Assembly: GCF_040448685.1 (NCBI RefSeq)
Contig: NZ_CP159290.1
Coordinates: 1,426,001 to 1,490,000, forward strand
Direction of reading: 5' to 3'
DNA: 64,000 bases
Origin: Cellulosimicrobium sp. ES-005
GTDB taxonomy: Bacteria; Actinomycetota; Actinomycetes; Actinomycetales; Cellulomonadaceae
This document shows positions 15,887 to 39,705 of the stretch, piece after piece. The notes under the pieces were generated by a model. It saw only the letters and a list, made by a program, of their open reading frames with translations, had not been told where the DNA came from and ran no database searches. The position numbers were made by a program, and so were the translations under genes. Position 1 is the stretch's first letter, and each line of letters opens with the position of its first letter.

Positions 15887-15954
15887 CGAGATCGACCCGA
15901 GCGTCCGAGATCGACCCTCGGTGGGTCGATCTGGGGACGCTCGGGTCGATCTCG
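15887..15954. repeat. Palindromic GATCGACCC repeat, copy B
   Basis: A near-perfect 68-nt hairpin. The outer 20-bp stem pairs CGAGATCGACCCGAGCGTCC (15887-15906) with 15935-15954. After a small internal loop, an inner 10-bp stem pairs AGATCGACCC (15908-15917) with GGGTCGATCT (15923-15932), and the loop is TCGGT. It lies between the convergent cupin and oxidoreductase genes, where it can also act as a bidirectional terminator. Confidence 0.92.
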
Positions 15955-20725: not shown

Positions 20726-23398
20726 TCACCGGTCGAGCGTCGCGGGCTCCTCACGCACGACGTCGGCCGGCGACTTGTCGCGCCGCCACCCCTTCCACAC
20801 GGGGTGCCGCAGCTTGCCGAACGGGATGTCGTCGCCCTCGCCCTCGCCGGGTCCCGTCCACTCGGCGTAGACGACCTCGGCGACCCGACGCGGCGACACC
20901 CAGCGTGCGTCCCGCGCGTCCTCGCGGGGCACTCCCGTCGCGGGCGCGGTCGTGCGCTCGATCCGGCCGAGCTCGGCCACGAGGTCGCGCCGCTCGGCGT
21001 CGGTGAAGCCCGACCCGACGCGGCCCACGTAGACCAGCCGGTCGCCGTCGGGCACCGCGAGCAGGAGCGACCCGACGAGGTGCGTCCGCTCGCCGTGGCC
21101 CGGCCGCCACCCCACGACGACGACCTCCTGCGACTGCGCGTGCTTGAGCTTGAGCCACAGCGCCGAGCGGCGGCCGGACGAGTAGGTGCCGTCGCGCCGC
21201 TTGGCGACGACGCCCTCCAGGCCGAGCTGCCTCGACGTCTCCATCGCCGCGTCGAGGTCGCCGTCGAACGCGGGCGGCACGTGCACCGGCGCGCGCGCGT
21301 CGCCCAGCACGTCCTCCAGCACCTCGCGCCGCTCGTCGTAGGGGCGCTTGGCGAGCGACCGGCCCGCGGTCTCCAGGAGGTCGAACACCATGAGGTCGAC
21401 GGTGACCTTGCGGCGGGCCGCCGCGACGTCCCCCGGCTTGGCGATGTTCGCGCGCTGCTGGAGGCGCCGGAAGCTCGGCCGTCCCCGCGCGTCGAGCGCG
21501 ACGATCTCGCCGTCCAGCACGACCGGCAGCGCCTCGGCCGGGACCTGCTCGGCGAGCGCCTGGAGCTCCGGGTACGTCACCGTCATGTCCTTGCCCGAGC
21601 GGCTCACGAGCCGCACCCGGCCTTCGGACACGTGCGCGAGCGCCCGGAACCCGTCCCACTTCATCTCGAACGCCCACGCGTCGCCGTCGCGCAGGTCGCC
21701 TGGCGTCGCGGGAGAAGCGAGCATGGGCCGCCAGTCCGTCCGAGCCGGCTGCGGTTCGGTCGGGGTTTGGTCGGGGCCGTGGTCGGGCTGGGTGGCGGGT
21801 GGGGCGCTCGCGCCGGGTCTACCATCCGCGCCTCGTTCCTCGGCGCTCCCGCCAGACCCGCCACGACCCGGCGCGAGCGCCCCACCCGCCTTCTTCGTCT
21901 CGCCCTGGTCGCGGCCTCCCGCGGACACCGGCCCCGGGGTGCCACCACGCGGGGCCATGAGGTGGATGAGCCAGTTGTCCTCGTCGCGACCGTCGCGGCC
22001 GCCCGTGTGGATGAGGGCGAGGCGGCGCGTGCCGTGCTGCTCGCCGTGGAGGGTGACGATGACCTCCTCGCCGTCCCGCCACTTCTCCAGCTCGTACGTG
22101 CCGGCGTCCCAGATGGTCACCTCGCCCGCGCCGTACTCGCCCTGCGGGATCGTGCCCTCGAACGCCCCGTACGCGAGCGGGTGGTCCTCGGTCTGGACGG
22201 CGAGGTGGTTCTTCTTCGGGTCCGTCGGCTCGCCGCGGGGCAGCGCCCAGCTCACGAGGACGCCGTCGTGCTCGAGCCGGAAGTCCCAGTGCAGTCGCCG
22301 GGCGTGGTGCTCCTGGATGACGAAGCTGTTGCCCGCGCTCGGGGGCGGCGCCTCGTCCGGGACCGGCTCGGGCGTGCGCTGCGCGTCGCGCATGGAGCGG
22401 TAACGGCGCAGGCGGTCGGGCCGGTCGGCGCCGTCGCCGCCCGACGTCGCAGCGCCCTTGCGCTCGAACGTCGCCATGCGCTCGGGCGTGGGCTCGAGCG
22501 CGGACAGATGGCCGAGCGTGAGGGCTGCGAGCGGGTCGCCGATCGTGCGCACGCGCTCGACCACCTCGTCCTTGTCGAGGTGCCGCAGGTCCGGGTCGTC
22601 GAGCTCCTCCCACGTGCGGGGCGCCGCGACGGTCGGGTGCATGCGCCCGCGCAGCGAGTACGGCGCGATGGTCGTCTTGTTGCCGTTGTTCTGGCTCCAG
22701 TCGACGAGCACCTTGCCGCCGCGCAGCGACTTCTTCATGTCGCTCACGACGAGGTCGGGGTGCTCGGCCTCGAGGTAGCGCGCGAGCTCGTGCGCGACGG
22801 CGGAGACGGCCGCGGCGTCCTGCTTGCCGTCGAGCGCGGCGTACAGGTGGATGCCCTTGGACCCGCTCGTCACGGGCAGGGGCTCGAGCCCCATGCCCTG
22901 CAGGATCTGCCGGGCCAGGCGCGCGACCTCCGCGCACTCGGCCAGCCCGGCCCCGGGCCCCGGGTCCAGGTCGAGGACGAGCCGGTCCGGGTTCAGGTGG
23001 ACCCCGGTGCGGCCGAACTGCCACTGCGGCACGTGCAGCTCCAGCGACGCCGTCTGGCCGAGCCACGTCAGCGTGGCCAGGTCGTCGACGAGCACGTAGT
23101 CGTTCGCGCTGCTCTTGTGCTGGATGCGGCGCGTGCGCACCCACGACGGCACGCCCTGCCCCGCGTTCTTCTGGAAGAACACCTGCCCGTCGACCCCGTC
23201 CGGCCAGCGCTTGCGCGTCGCGGGCCGGTGGGCGCAGTGGGGGAGCATGACGTCGGCGACGGCCGCGAGGTACGCGAGGACGTCCGCCTTCGTCGTGCCG
23301 GTGGCGGGGTAGAGGACCTTGTCGAGGTTCGTGAGCCGCAGGCGGTGGCCCCCGACGCTCACCGTCTCGCCCGCGCCGCGGCTCGATGAGGTGGCCAT
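20726..23398 (-). CDS. ligD: Multifunctional ATP-dependent DNA ligase LigD (NHEJ)
   Basis: An 890-residue protein with three domains in mycobacterial order. The polymerase/primase domain (about residues 10-290) has the LVLDLDPGPG metal motif. The 3'-phosphoesterase domain (about 355-475) has FVIQEHHARRLHWDFRLEHD. The ligase domain (about 560-890) has catalytic Lys 580 in FEMKWDGFRAL. Together with Ku it repairs double-strand breaks by end joining. The linker at about residues 503-537 is unusual: it is encoded by a 103-bp structured repeat also found at 39.4 kb (see the repeat entry). The ATG at 23398 directly precedes the polymerase domain and is divergent from the alarmone synthetase gene. 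Confidence 0.97.
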   Translation of the reverse strand: MATSSSRGAGETVSVGGHRLRLTNLDKVLYPATGTTKADVLAYLAAVADVMLPHCAHRPATRKRWPDGVDGQVFFQKNAGQGVPSWVRTRRIQHKSSANDYVLVDDLATLTWLGQTASLELHVPQWQFGRTGVHLNPDRLVLDLDPGPGAGLAECAEVARLARQILQGMGLEPLPVTSGSKGIHLYAALDGKQDAAAVSAVAHELARYLEAEHPDLVVSDMKKSLRGGKVLVDWSQNNGNKTTIAPYSLRGRMHPTVAAPRTWEELDDPDLRHLDKDEVVERVRTIGDPLAALTLGHLSALEPTPERMATFERKGAATSGGDGADRPDRLRRYRSMRDAQRTPEPVPDEAPPPSAGNSFVIQEHHARRLHWDFRLEHDGVLVSWALPRGEPTDPKKNHLAVQTEDHPLAYGAFEGTIPQGEYGAGEVTIWDAGTYELEKWRDGEEVIVTLHGEQHGTRRLALIHTGGRDGRDEDNWLIHLMAPRGGTPGPVSAGGRDQGETKKAGGALAPGRGGSGGSAEERGADGRPGASAPPATQPDHGPDQTPTEPQPARTDWRPMLASPATPGDLRDGDAWAFEMKWDGFRALAHVSEGRVRLVSRSGKDMTVTYPELQALAEQVPAEALPVVLDGEIVALDARGRPSFRRLQQRANIAKPGDVAAARRKVTVDLMVFDLLETAGRSLAKRPYDERREVLEDVLGDARAPVHVPPAFDGDLDAAMETSRQLGLEGVVAKRRDGTYSSGRRSALWLKLKHAQSQEVVVVGWRPGHGERTHLVGSLLLAVPDGDRLVYVGRVGSGFTDAERRDLVAELGRIERTTAPATGVPREDARDARWVSPRRVAEVVYAEWTGPGEGEGDDIPFGKLRHPVWKGWRRDKSPADVVREEPATLDR
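21788..21890 (-). repeat. Structured palindromic element, copy 1 (inside ligD)
   Basis: Perfect 26-nt outer arms at 21794-21819 and 21865-21890 enclose a 45-nt core (21820-21864). On the plus strand the core begins TACCATCC, then an inner hairpin GCGCC / TCGTTCCTC / GGCGC (21828-21846), then TCCCGCCAGACCCGCCAC. A conserved CTGGGT abuts it (21788-21793). Copy 2 (39443-39552) has the same core, loop and flank, but different stem sequences that still pair. Here the element is translated as part of the LigD linker. Confidence 0.9.
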
Positions 23399-23578
23399 GG
23401 GCCCATCGTGACGCGCGCCCGTCCGCGCCGCCTGCCGGGCGGGACCCGACGCGGGACCAAGGACCCTGCCCGCGGGGCGCCGCGGGAACTTCCTGGCGCC
23501 CCCGACCGTGCACACTGGAGGAGGCGGTCCGCCCCAGCCGTGGAGACCGCCGGGACGAGGCAGACCGAGAGGAACACC

Positions 23579-24352
23579 GTGACGCACCTGACGACCGACG
23601 ACGTACCGCTCCCCGCGGAGATCGGTCCGCGCGTCCGCGAGTTCCGGCGCCTGATGATGAACTACAAGTTCGGCATCGACGAGGTGATGACCAAGATCAC
23701 CGTCCTGCGCGACGAGTTCCGCCACGTCCACGACGACAACCCCATCGAGCACCTGGGCTCGCGCCTGAAGTCGCTCGACTCGATCGTCGCGAAGGCGCGG
23801 CGCAAGGGGATCCCGCTCACGCCCGAGGGCGTGCGGGAGAACATGTTCGACGTCGCGGGCGTGCGCGTGACGTGCGCGTTCGTCTCGGACATCTACCGCG
23901 TGCGGGACCTGCTCGTCGGCCAGCGCGACCTCACGGTCCTGGAGGAGCGCGACTACATCGCCCACCCCAAGGGCAACGGGTACAAGAGCCTGCACCTCAT
24001 CGTGCAGGTGCCGGTGTTCCTGTCGGACCGCGTCGAGGACGTCGTGGTGGAGATCCAGCTCCGGACGATCGCGATGGACTTCTGGGCGAGCCTCGAGCAC
24101 AAGATCTACTACAAGTACCAGCGGGACGTGCCGCAGCACCTCACCGACGCCCTCAAGCTCGCGGCCGACGTCGCCGCGACGCTCGACACGACGATGGAGC
24201 GCATCCACGACGAGGTGCGCGGCCTCGACGGCGTGCCCGAGCCCACGGAGAACACGGACGAGCTCGCCACGCCGCGCGAGGTGATGGAGAGCTTCATGCG
24301 GACGGCGCAGGTCGCCGACGAGGCGTTCCACGAGCGCCGCCACGACGGCTGA
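23579..24352 (+). CDS. Small alarmone synthetase (GTP pyrophosphokinase, RelQ/SAS type)
   Basis: A 257-residue RelA/SpoT-type synthetase domain protein without hydrolase, TGS or ACT domains. It makes (p)ppGpp-like alarmones from ATP and GDP/GTP. Conserved segments are FDVAGVRVTCAF, the substrate loop YIAHPKGNGYKSLHLIV, and VVEIQLRTIAMDFWASLEHK with catalytic Glu about 158. All are intact, so it is probably active. The GTG start at 23579 has GAGAGGAA upstream. It is divergent from ligD and convergent with an ABC exporter. Small synthetases of this kind usually act in stress adjustment alongside a long Rel enzyme encoded elsewhere. Confidence 0.93.
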   Translation: MTHLTTDDVPLPAEIGPRVREFRRLMMNYKFGIDEVMTKITVLRDEFRHVHDDNPIEHLGSRLKSLDSIVAKARRKGIPLTPEGVRENMFDVAGVRVTCAFVSDIYRVRDLLVGQRDLTVLEERDYIAHPKGNGYKSLHLIVQVPVFLSDRVEDVVVEIQLRTIAMDFWASLEHKIYYKYQRDVPQHLTDALKLAADVAATLDTTMERIHDEVRGLDGVPEPTENTDELATPREVMESFMRTAQVADEAFHERRHDG

Positions 24353-24384
24353 CGCCACCCACCCCGCGGATGGGCGGCGCCGGT

Positions 24385-37942: not shown

Positions 37943-39232
37943 ATGACCGACAGCACCGCCACGCCCGCGCCTCCCGCGGACGTCCCTCCCACGCGCGCCG
38001 GACGCCTGCGCGGGGCCGGGCCCGCGCTCCTCGCGCTCGCGATGGGTGGGTTCACCATCGGCACGACCGAGTTCGCGACGATGGGCCTGCTCTCCGACAT
38101 CGCGACCGACCTCGACGTCTCGATCCCCACGGCGGGCCACGCCATCACCGCCTACGCCGTCGGCGTGGTCGTCGGGGCGCCGCTGCTCACCGTCGTCGCG
38201 GCGCGCCTGCCCCGCAAGACGCTGCTCGTCGCGCTCATGGCGTTCTACACGCTCGGCAACCTGTTCTCCGCGACCGCCGGGAGCATCGAGACGCTCGTCG
38301 CCGGCCGGTTCCTCGCGGGGCTGCCGCACGGAGCGTTCTTCGGCGTCGGAGCCGCGGTCGGCGCCGCCGTCGCGGGTCCCGGGCGCCGGGGGCGCGCCGT
38401 CGCGACCATGATGGCCGGGCTGACCATCGCCAACGTCGTCGGGGTCCCGCTCTCGACCTTCGCCGGGCAGCAGCTCGGCTGGCGCGCCGCGTTCGTCGTG
38501 GTCGGCGGGCTGGGCCTCGTCACGCTCGCCGCCCTGTGGTGGCTCGTCCCGGCCGGTGCGGGGAACGAGGACTCGAGCGTGCGCCGCGAGCTCGGCGCGC
38601 TGCGCAACGGGCCGCTGTGGCTCGGGTTCATCGGCGCCGCGGTCGGGTTCGGCGGCATGTTCGCCGTCTACTCCTACGTCGAGCCGACCATCACACGCGT
38701 CACGGGCCTGTCGTCCGCCGCGGTGCCGCTGGTGCTCGCGATCTTCGGCGTCGGCATGACGGTCGGCACCGTCCTCGGCGGTCGGCTCGCCGACCGCTCC
38801 GTCATGCGCACCGTCTACCTCGGGTTCGTCTCCACGGGCGTGACGCTCGCGCTGTTCGCCCTCACGGGCCACCACCCCGTCCCCGCCGTGCTGTCGCTCT
38901 TCCTGCTCGGCGTCACCTCCCAGGTCCTCGGCCTCGCCCTGCAGACGCGCCTCATGGACCTGTCGCCCGCCGCGCCCTCGCTCGGCGCGGCCCTGTGCCA
39001 CTCCGCGCTCAACGTCGGCAACGCCAACGGCGCGTTCCTCGGGGGTCTCGTCATCGCCGCCGGCTGGGGCTACCTCGCCCCGGCCTGGACCGGCGTCGTG
39101 CTCACTGTCGCCGGCCTGGCGATCATCCTCCTCGTCGGCCGCCGCCCCGCCGGCGTCGCCGGCGTCGTCGGCGCCACCCTGCCCGACGACGCCGGCTCGC
39201 CTGCGACCGAGCCGGTCAGCCTGCCGAGGTAG
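37943..39232 (+). CDS. MFS transporter (Cmx/CmlA or AraJ-like)
   Basis: A 429-residue twelve-helix exporter. It starts LLALAMGGFTIGTTEFATMGLLSDIATDL, the characteristic opening of the DHA1 group that includes chloramphenicol and arabinose exporters (G-x-F-x-x-G-x-x-E-F). Motif A-like regions are AARLPRKTLLVALM and GRLADRSVMRTVYLG. CGAGGA precedes ATG 37943. The substrate is unknown. The stop codon (39230-39232) lies inside the first unit of a 21-bp tandem repeat array, so the array has fixed the C-terminus (...SLPR). Confidence 0.92.
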   Translation: MTDSTATPAPPADVPPTRAGRLRGAGPALLALAMGGFTIGTTEFATMGLLSDIATDLDVSIPTAGHAITAYAVGVVVGAPLLTVVAARLPRKTLLVALMAFYTLGNLFSATAGSIETLVAGRFLAGLPHGAFFGVGAAVGAAVAGPGRRGRAVATMMAGLTIANVVGVPLSTFAGQQLGWRAAFVVVGGLGLVTLAALWWLVPAGAGNEDSSVRRELGALRNGPLWLGFIGAAVGFGGMFAVYSYVEPTITRVTGLSSAAVPLVLAIFGVGMTVGTVLGGRLADRSVMRTVYLGFVSTGVTLALFALTGHHPVPAVLSLFLLGVTSQVLGLALQTRLMDLSPAAPSLGAALCHSALNVGNANGAFLGGLVIAAGWGYLAPAWTGVVLTVAGLAIILLVGRRPAGVAGVVGATLPDDAGSPATEPVSLPR

Positions 39233-39411
39233 ACCCCTGGTCCGCCGAGGTAGAGCCCTGGTCTGCCGAGGTAGAGCCCTGGTCTGCCGAGGTAGAGCCC
39301 TGGTCTGCCGAGGTAGAGCCCTGGTCTGCCGAGGTAGAGCCCTGGTCTGCCGAGGTAGAGCCCTGGTCTGCCGAGGTAGAGCCCTGGTCTGCCGAGGTAG
39401 AGCCCTGGTCG
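39223..39411. repeat. Tandem array of nine 21-bp units
   Basis: Nine contiguous units start at 39223, 39244, 39265 and so on to 39391, each beginning GCCGAGGTAGAGCC. Only the first unit (TAGACCCC, CGTCC-type ending) and the last junction differ; units two to eight are identical or nearly so. Each forward unit carries TAG in the frame of the upstream MFS gene. No spacers of unrelated sequence are present, so it is not CRISPR. A related array is at 52151-52255. Confidence 0.97.
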
Positions 39412-39442: not shown

Positions 39443-39552
39443 GGTCGGGGTGGGTGGTGGTGCCGCGTCGTGGTCGGGCCTGGCGGGAGCGACGCGAGGA
39501 ACGAGCGGCGCGGATGGTAGACGCGGCACCACCACCCACCCCGACCACCCAG
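39443..39552 (+). repeat. Structured palindromic element, copy 2
   Basis: Perfect 27-nt outer arms (39443-39469 and 39520-39546) flank a 50-nt core (39470-39519). The core in this orientation is GTGGTCGGGCCTGGCGGGA, an inner hairpin with loop GAGGAACGA (39496-39504), then GGATGGTA. ACCCAG follows (39547-39552), as in copy 1. Core, loop and flank match copy 1 in ligD, but the stems differ and still pair. It is intergenic, between the 21-bp array and a single inverted unit. Confidence 0.92.
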
Positions 39553-39578
39553 GGCAACCACACGCCGTCGTGAAAGGC

Positions 39579-39599
39579 GACCACGCCTCTACCTCGGCG
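39579..39599. repeat. Single inverted 21-bp unit
   Basis: GACCACGCCTCTACCTCGGC begins a lone copy of the 21-bp unit in inverted orientation relative to the nine-unit array, matching the orientation of the array at 52 kb. The remaining sequence up to the VKOR start (39600-39705) shows a TAGGTT (39629) that could be a -10 element and otherwise nothing distinctive. Confidence 0.8.
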
Positions 39600-39705
39600 G
39601 ACTCCCAGCCGGGACCCAGCGGCGCGCGGTAGGTTGTGCCCTGCGCGCACCGCCGTGCGCCCCGTCACGTCCGGCGCGAGCCGGTGACCCACGAGGAGCG
39701 TCCCC

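Follow-up and report, generated by a model that had tools for sequence, protein, structure and literature searches.

Two long hairpins in a 64,000-nt stretch of Cellulosimicrobium sp. ES-005 DNA (contig NZ_CP159290.1, positions 1,426,001 to 1,490,000; hereafter, the window) share a conserved core, while the outer stems enclosing it are perfectly paired in both and largely different in sequence. What kind of entity would hold its loops constant and let its stem be rewritten? We moderately favour the view that the two hairpins belong to a dispersed family of palindromic repeats with a conserved core and a rewritten, paired stem, which is likely to be a non-autonomous mobile element recognized as a folded single strand by a putative trans-acting factor. 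We read the family as a mobile palindrome because similar units are amplified, their spread is patchy, either orientation is tolerated, and they are rare between divergent genes. Among the possibilities raised in a preliminary description of the window, namely a mobile palindromic repeat, a DNA–protein recognition structure and a structured RNA, the first fits best.

The outer stem (P1), whose arms are 100% complementary in both copies, measures 26 bp in copy 1 (21794–21890, core on the + strand, 45 nt separating the outer arms) and 27 bp in copy 2 (39443–39546, core on the − strand, 50 nt separating the arms). The common core reads TACCATCC-P2-TCGTTCCTC-P2'-TCCCGCCAG-RCCC-CCAC, with TCCCGCCAG followed by ACCCGCCAC in copy 1 and by GCCCGACCAC in copy 2. 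Along the + strand, copy 1 is composed of the P1 5′ arm (21794–21819), the internal-loop strand TACCATCC (21820–21827), the 5′ arm of the inner stem P2, GCGCC (21828–21832), the hairpin loop TCGTTCCTC (21833–21841), the P2 3′ arm GGCGC (21842–21846), the second internal-loop strand TCCCGCCAG-ACCCGCCAC (21847–21864) and the P1 3′ arm (21865–21890), and both of its internal-loop strands are conserved among further copies. Read in core orientation along the − strand, copy 2 consists of the P1 5′ arm (39520–39546), the conserved TACCATCC strand (39512–39519), the P2 5′ arm GCGCCGC (39505–39511), the loop TCGTTCCTC (39496–39504), the P2 3′ arm GCGTCGC (39489–39495), the conserved TCCCGCCAG-GCCCGACCAC strand (39470–39488) and the P1 3′ arm (39443–39469). 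P2 thus differs between the copies in both length and sequence and still pairs, with a single mismatch in copy 2. The motif CTGGGT directly adjoins the outer stem on both occasions (21788–21793 on the + strand; 39547–39552 on the − strand, where the + strand reads ACCCAG). All these features, including the nearly unrelated stems, were as the preliminary description had them. The pattern TCGTTCCTCN{0,8}GCTCCCGCCAG matches twice in the window and in none of 100 shuffles, and DNA folding of both strands of both copies yields z-scores of −7.7 to −8.2. The window contains five perfect inverted repeats with arms of at least 18 nt and a spacer of at most 100 nt; with arms of at least 15 nt there are eight, as against none in either of two first-order Markov sequences.

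The proposal that the same structured element occurs in unrelated contexts, with a conserved loop and changing paired stems, gained support from many further copies. The window's own genome (G000, 4.86 Mb) holds 29 matches to an exact pattern comprising the loop and one flank, while the reversed control pattern has none. A covariance model (R1, built on 52 copies and 91 positions) finds 34 matches at E ≤ 0.01 in this genome and 27, 15, 31 and 3 in four others, with 150 candidates scored per genome, so that weak copies can be missed. The 31 matches in G517 correspond to approximately 27 elements, as eight of them lie in pairs on either side of four assembly gaps; the core-only matches in this genome are sides of gaps inside elements, which ruled them out as solo cores. 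In G615, the weakest of the three matches is partial. Assemblies break inside the element elsewhere, too: runs of N occur in G517 (L279–L282), and contigs end at the core in G004 and G006. The hairpin, by defeating sequencing, is probably the cause of these breaks, and because gaps in the assembly or the ends of contigs coincide with copies in several genomes, the copy number may be underestimated. Most copies were gathered by the exact loop pattern, which inflates the apparent conservation of the loop; model matches fetched later show TCGTCCCTC and a few other loop variants. An abundant subfamily has approximately 170–200 bp in common, stem and flanks included, as exemplified by one copy in the window's genome that aligns with 16 copies at other sites at 88.6–95.4% over 170–202 nt and with two further partners in longer, weaker alignments. 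Only seven of the 34 copies fall within 1.5–3.8 Mb, a region that makes up 47% of the chromosome. The folded strand, as defined below, is the − strand in 23 copies and the + strand in 11, with no switch between the chromosome halves visible by eye.

Beyond this genome, the distribution is patchy. A slightly looser pattern is present in 25 of the 99 related genomes (own included), including every one of the 15 other genomes of the genus, and in seven of the 54 genera, with one to 42 exact-pattern copies per positive genome. Two genomes of a single genus can differ markedly, as do G041, with 14 exact copies, and G017, with none. Among the matches listed by name (80 of at least 120 stretches), we found Cellulosimicrobium, Luteimicrobium, Isoptericola, Oerskovia, Antribacter and Actinomyces, alongside matches in unrelated taxa that are due to chance, having neither ATCC nor the stem. 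In an order-wide draw of 396 genomes, a shorter pattern occurs in 21, of which we judged on inspection that 14 (own included) contain real copies and seven have chance matches in coding sequence. Across 396 genomes of the phylum, the model, applied under stricter filters and to 10 candidates per genome, matches two genomes only, the window's own and a second one from its order, which contains a diverged relative with the loop TCGTCCCTC and a long stem. A phage origin was also considered: viral contigs contain 14 exact-pattern stretches, none of which was seen to be preceded by ATCC, and these were taken as chance.

Do the stems change in a compensatory manner? For 56 copies picked for dissimilar arms, 84.4% of the 1511 stem cells are paired, and the covariation score amounts to 0.560, compared to 0.158 ± 0.011 in 500 shuffles and 0.104–0.173 when the structure is slid to a wrong partner. 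Likewise, 371 cells are altered on both sides, as opposed to 133 ± 8 in the shuffles. An earlier count on 52 copies, which omitted L036, L052, L063 and L113 (the arms of three of these pair poorly), gave 85.6% and 0.579. Because the structure was in part read off these very sequences, and because the copies are related to each other, the shuffles overstate the significance; given the slid controls and the effect size, there is nevertheless little doubt that the stems pair across the family. The preliminary description had regarded the compensatory changes in the two window copies as strong evidence of selection for structure. The changes are real, even though two copies alone would not have sufficed to establish them, but the conclusion was too strong: template switching homogenizes the arms of inverted repeats and can invert their spacers, as described in PMC8604942 and PMC8794818, and because it also keeps stems paired, covariation alone is no proof of selection. 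In the extreme, mutation alone would account for the family, with template switching perfecting the arms and the core riding along as a passive spacer, so that covariation would arise without function. The ligD gene of the related genome G013, which retains a perfect 16-bp palindrome without a core, is compatible with this explanation. Yet it leaves unexplained the conservation of the core loops over genera, the amplification and a strand bias among mismatches, and we consider it very unlikely.

This strand bias offers better, if modest, evidence of selection on one folded strand than the covariation does. In double-stranded DNA, the two kinds of transition mismatch are expected to be equally common. 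We counted mismatches in P1 for 29 of 48 non-redundant copies, the other 19 being excluded for an irregular P1, and in P2 for 49 distinct arm pairs. In core orientation, P1 mismatches with paired neighbours comprise nine A.C/C.A versus three G.T/T.G and 10 pyrimidine–pyrimidine versus two purine–purine, and the corresponding values for P2 are nine versus three and 11 versus two. Summed, transitions stand at 18:6 (one-sided binomial 0.011) and pyrimidine–pyrimidine to purine–purine at 21:4 (0.0005). Without the neighbour filter, P1 alone gives 10 versus five and 14 versus four. When redundant copies are kept, 90 of 130 copies can be used, and the transitions stand at 26 versus eight. Because this excess amounts to G.U/G.T and purine–purine mismatches on the complement of the core as written, we infer that the strand whose fold matters is 5'-GTGGYGGGYCTGGCGGGA-P2-GAGGAACGA-P2'-GGATGGTA-3'. 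On this strand, the internal loop that a subset of copies carries within P1, 3–4 bp from the core (GCTC-TC-GGC / GCC-TTC-GAGC and similar), often reads CGAAG or CGAG. The bias is the part that template switching leaves unexplained.

Since the stems differ between copies, the mobile unit might conceivably be the core of approximately 45 nt alone, inserting into the loops of pre-existing palindromes that serve as its target. Core-less 16-bp palindromes at two orthologous sites (ligD in G013 and the copy 2 site in G009) would suit this idea, as would the occurrence of both orientations. However, the pairs adjoining the core are constrained (C-G in 53 and G-C in 48 of the 56 copies), the internal loop recurs within P1, and the abundant subfamily carries its stem and flanks along, all of which makes a core-only unit highly improbable.

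A comparison of occupied and core-less sites in relatives, as the preliminary description had suggested, indicates that copies appear or vanish within the genus and that some are old. At six sites, the core is present in seven of the 20 orthologous stretches fetched and missing from 13, most of the latter having been chosen for a short-looking gap. In ligD, the reading frame of the linker is open in all 10 sequences. The linker holds the element in G000, G002, G005, G006, G007, G009, G012 and Cellulosimicrobium marinum, in forward orientation in G000, G006, G007 and G009 and reversed in G002, G005 and G012, while G004 and G013 lack the core. In C. marinum, the first half of a reversed copy is followed downstream by a whole forward copy, and the linker has therefore probably received two copies. 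We do not claim an in-place inversion across the arms at ligD, as two adjacent insertions with different losses explain the data equally well and the LigD tree is too weak to decide (support of 46–73 at the relevant nodes). The same applies to the ferrochelatase gene, where the element is sense in L076 and L119 and antisense in L126. At the copy 2 site, the element is present in G004, whereas just its outer flanks are found in G006 and G007, and the core is missing from G009 and G002, with G009 retaining a 16-bp palindrome of the neighbouring repeats. The seven stretches fetched at four further sites, picked for gaps shorter than in the window's genome, all lack the core. In the hrpA-type linker, one and the same position is occupied in loci of the window's own genus (one of these in C. 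funkei), Isoptericola and Antribacter, with different, paired stems.

If the element acted in the host mRNA, its orientation relative to genes should matter. Using a simple codon-usage gene caller, we compared 100 intergenic copies that have a called gene on either side, orthologues among them, with 460 element-free neighbour pairs. Convergent gaps are favoured, accounting for 43 of the 100 copies and 66 of the 460 pairs, tandem gaps for 53 and 320, and divergent gaps for four and 74, respectively. Within tandem gaps, 23 copies run with the gene direction and 30 against it, revealing no clear preference, and 10 of the 30 in-gene copies are sense and 20 antisense. This indifference argues against a role in host mRNA. 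A common neighbour gene was discarded as a candidate: where flanking genes formed large clusters, these seemed to reflect orthologous surroundings or widespread families. A structured RNA with a conserved internal loop, be it cis-regulatory, residing in a 3′ untranslated region or trans-acting, would be in line with the wobble and purine–purine mismatches, with the GA-type internal loop on one strand, and with a covariance model that behaves as for an RNA family. Set against this are the lack of a preferred orientation, the scarcity of copies in divergent regions, and a comparison with Rfam 15 (E ≤ 10 for 21 kb of the window and seven loci, E ≤ 1 for six loci) in which nothing came near a gathering score. 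The best matches overlapping the element were mir-H1 (27.4 bits; gathering score 97) and RAGATH-31 (25.7 bits; gathering score 71.8; best E of 0.12). We regard a structured RNA as quite unlikely, and the structured RNA considered in the preliminary description, taken as an mRNA element, is not supported.

Copies inside genes are in frame, in either sense, in the linkers of LigD, an HrpA-like helicase, UvrD, biotin carboxylase and ferrochelatase. Pfam identifies the hosts as LigD, a protein with DUF3418 and OB_NTP_bind, biotin carboxylase, UvrD/PcrA and ferrochelatase, and additionally as an ABC ATPase, an alpha/beta hydrolase and a GntR-aminotransferase. The DUF3418/OB_NTP_bind protein is what we take to be hrpA. 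A ninth host fragment (L294) has no Pfam match, and its frame presumably resembles a RecB-type nuclease. Copy 1 lies in the LigD linker GGALAPGRGGSGGSAEERGADGRPGASAPP between the 3′-phosphoesterase and ligase domains, within an open reading frame on the − strand (20726–24358 as listed, the true start probably being further in; Pfam LigD_N and DNA_ligase_A_M), and the proposed folding strand would here be the ligD sense strand. In the window's genome, the in-gene hosts (ligD, L018, L024 and L294) lean towards DNA repair and helicase genes, next to a biotin carboxylase (L020); this may be due to chance or to long linkers.

Several observations weigh against a mobile element recognized through its fold. 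No target-site duplication, clean pre-insertion junction or empty site aligned base by base was established, and some of the core-less stretches, chosen as described, may be hairpin deletions, as the outer flanks kept by G006 and G007 at the copy 2 site suggest. Plasmids (queried with copies 1 and 2) and phages (queried with copy 2) gave no match. The search for mobilizing machinery detected the Y1 transposase (PF01797, RAYT) in three of the 99 genomes and none of the 25 that bear the element, and a reverse transcriptase, IS110 and TnpB in one, four and three of 12 element-bearing genomes, respectively; being absent from all or most of these genomes, the four were rejected as an obligatory partner. 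As regards the fold, the number of stem pairs altered on both sides (26 of 28, compared to a shuffle mean of 23.1, with four of the 500 shuffles reaching 26) is barely informative, and the transition bias in P1 alone is not significant (one-sided 0.073; 0.15 unfiltered), the copies moreover being non-independent. Finally, the hrpA-type copies in three genera are old and fit a host function as well. They lend some weight to a structural DNA site owned by the host, where a chromosomal protein would bind the hairpin or cruciform core, for instance in recombination, replication or chromosome folding, with core and fold both kept by selection. The strong conservation of the core over genera and orthologous sites, the missing plasmid and phage matches and partner transposase, and the lack of a clear orientation preference relative to transcription are all compatible with such a site. 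Its patchy occurrence among genera and genomes of the order, the variable copy number, presence and absence at given sites within one genus, and in-frame copies inside enzymes are not readily so, and we deem this explanation unlikely.

Among known systems, the Rickettsia palindromic elements (RPEs) are the closest in kind. PMC2229807 and PMC10969869 describe them and their Wolbachia relatives as long hairpins of approximately 100–150 bp, present in many copies both between genes and in frame in unrelated conserved genes. The present element similarly occurs at many unrelated sites (34 in the window's genome) and enters conserved genes in frame without a stop codon. Compared by kind and not by sequence, it differs from RPEs in its phylum, in its constant loop and stem rewritten from copy to copy, in entering genes in both orientations and in occupying the same linker in different genera. 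Repetitive extragenic palindromes (REPs) and REPINs are dispersed, mostly extragenic palindromes for which IS200-like movement was proposed (PMC3116915), and REPs keep both the palindrome and a GTAG/CGTC tag according to PMC3733652. In contrast, the element keeps loops and not stems, and its 25 host genomes lack a RAYT (Y1_Tnp). GTAG adjoins P1 in many copies, with GAAG, GTCG, GTTG or others elsewhere, and the stems vary, unlike the REP arrangement of a tag beside a conserved stem. Miniature inverted-repeat transposable elements (MITEs), such as Correia/NEMIS, ERIC and RUP, are small, repeated, palindromic and coding-compatible (PMC2229807); the element has no terminal inverted repeat in common, since its arms differ among aligned copies and are alike only within the abundant subfamily. 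By two tested features, then, it is not a REP or REPIN, and by one it is not a typical MITE. It also departs from inverted repeats maintained by template switching, which are single loci with passive spacers, in that a specific core is conserved and amplified. Integron attC sites combine a variable stem, conserved unpaired features and recognition of one folded strand. The element resembles them in its variable stem and conserved unpaired features and, as proposed, in the recognition of one folded strand.

The repeats next to the hairpins deserve mention. Tandem 21-bp repeats (CTGGTCTGCCGAGGTAGAGCC) adjoin copy 2 (window ~39230–39410), with an inverted partner across it (39578–39602); they also border further members of the abundant subfamily and persist at some hairpin-free sites. 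At five of the 29 loci in the window's genome (L002, L003, L009, L023 and L028), an IS110-family transposase adjoins the element, and these IS110 copies appear to have inserted into the neighbouring 21-bp repeats. A second hairpin, located ~300–400 nt from abundant-subfamily copies in the opposite orientation (L003:1839–1993, L027:1935–2090 and relatives), has the GGATGCGAAGGGGC / GCCCCGAGCACCGAG stem motif of the element and a different core. A further palindrome family, around GAGCAGGTGGT..GCCTGCTCG, is intergenic in the genus (L212; L003 ~1690–1790), and the window itself contains one more perfect inverted repeat, of 20 bp (15887–15954), in which GAGATCGACCC units are nested and the core is absent.

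How might a mobile palindrome of this kind work? A putative trans-acting factor would recognize the folded single strand, and folding would take place while the element moves, either in single-stranded DNA or in an RNA derived from the element, and not in host mRNA. The complementarity of the stem may be kept jointly by template switching between the arms during replication and by selection for the fold, and in-frame copies may persist by falling in tolerant linkers. More tentatively, we propose a new class of elements, in which the entity inherited and recognized would be a folded single strand, with a constant internal loop and a freely rewritten stem, moved by machinery common to several Actinomycetales families and providing enzymes, LigD and HrpA among them, with pre-formed linkers in the correct frame. 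In the open-licence literature, we found no description of this design.

Palindromic repeats are usually recognized by a conserved stem, whereas here the stem is free and the loops are fixed, so that in this family selection acting on shape can be told apart from selection acting on sequence. With dozens of copies per genome, it provides natural replicates for weighing template switching against selection in the upkeep of hairpins. It would also add another bacterial lineage to those whose conserved genes contain palindromic elements in frame, and it hints at a putative enzyme.

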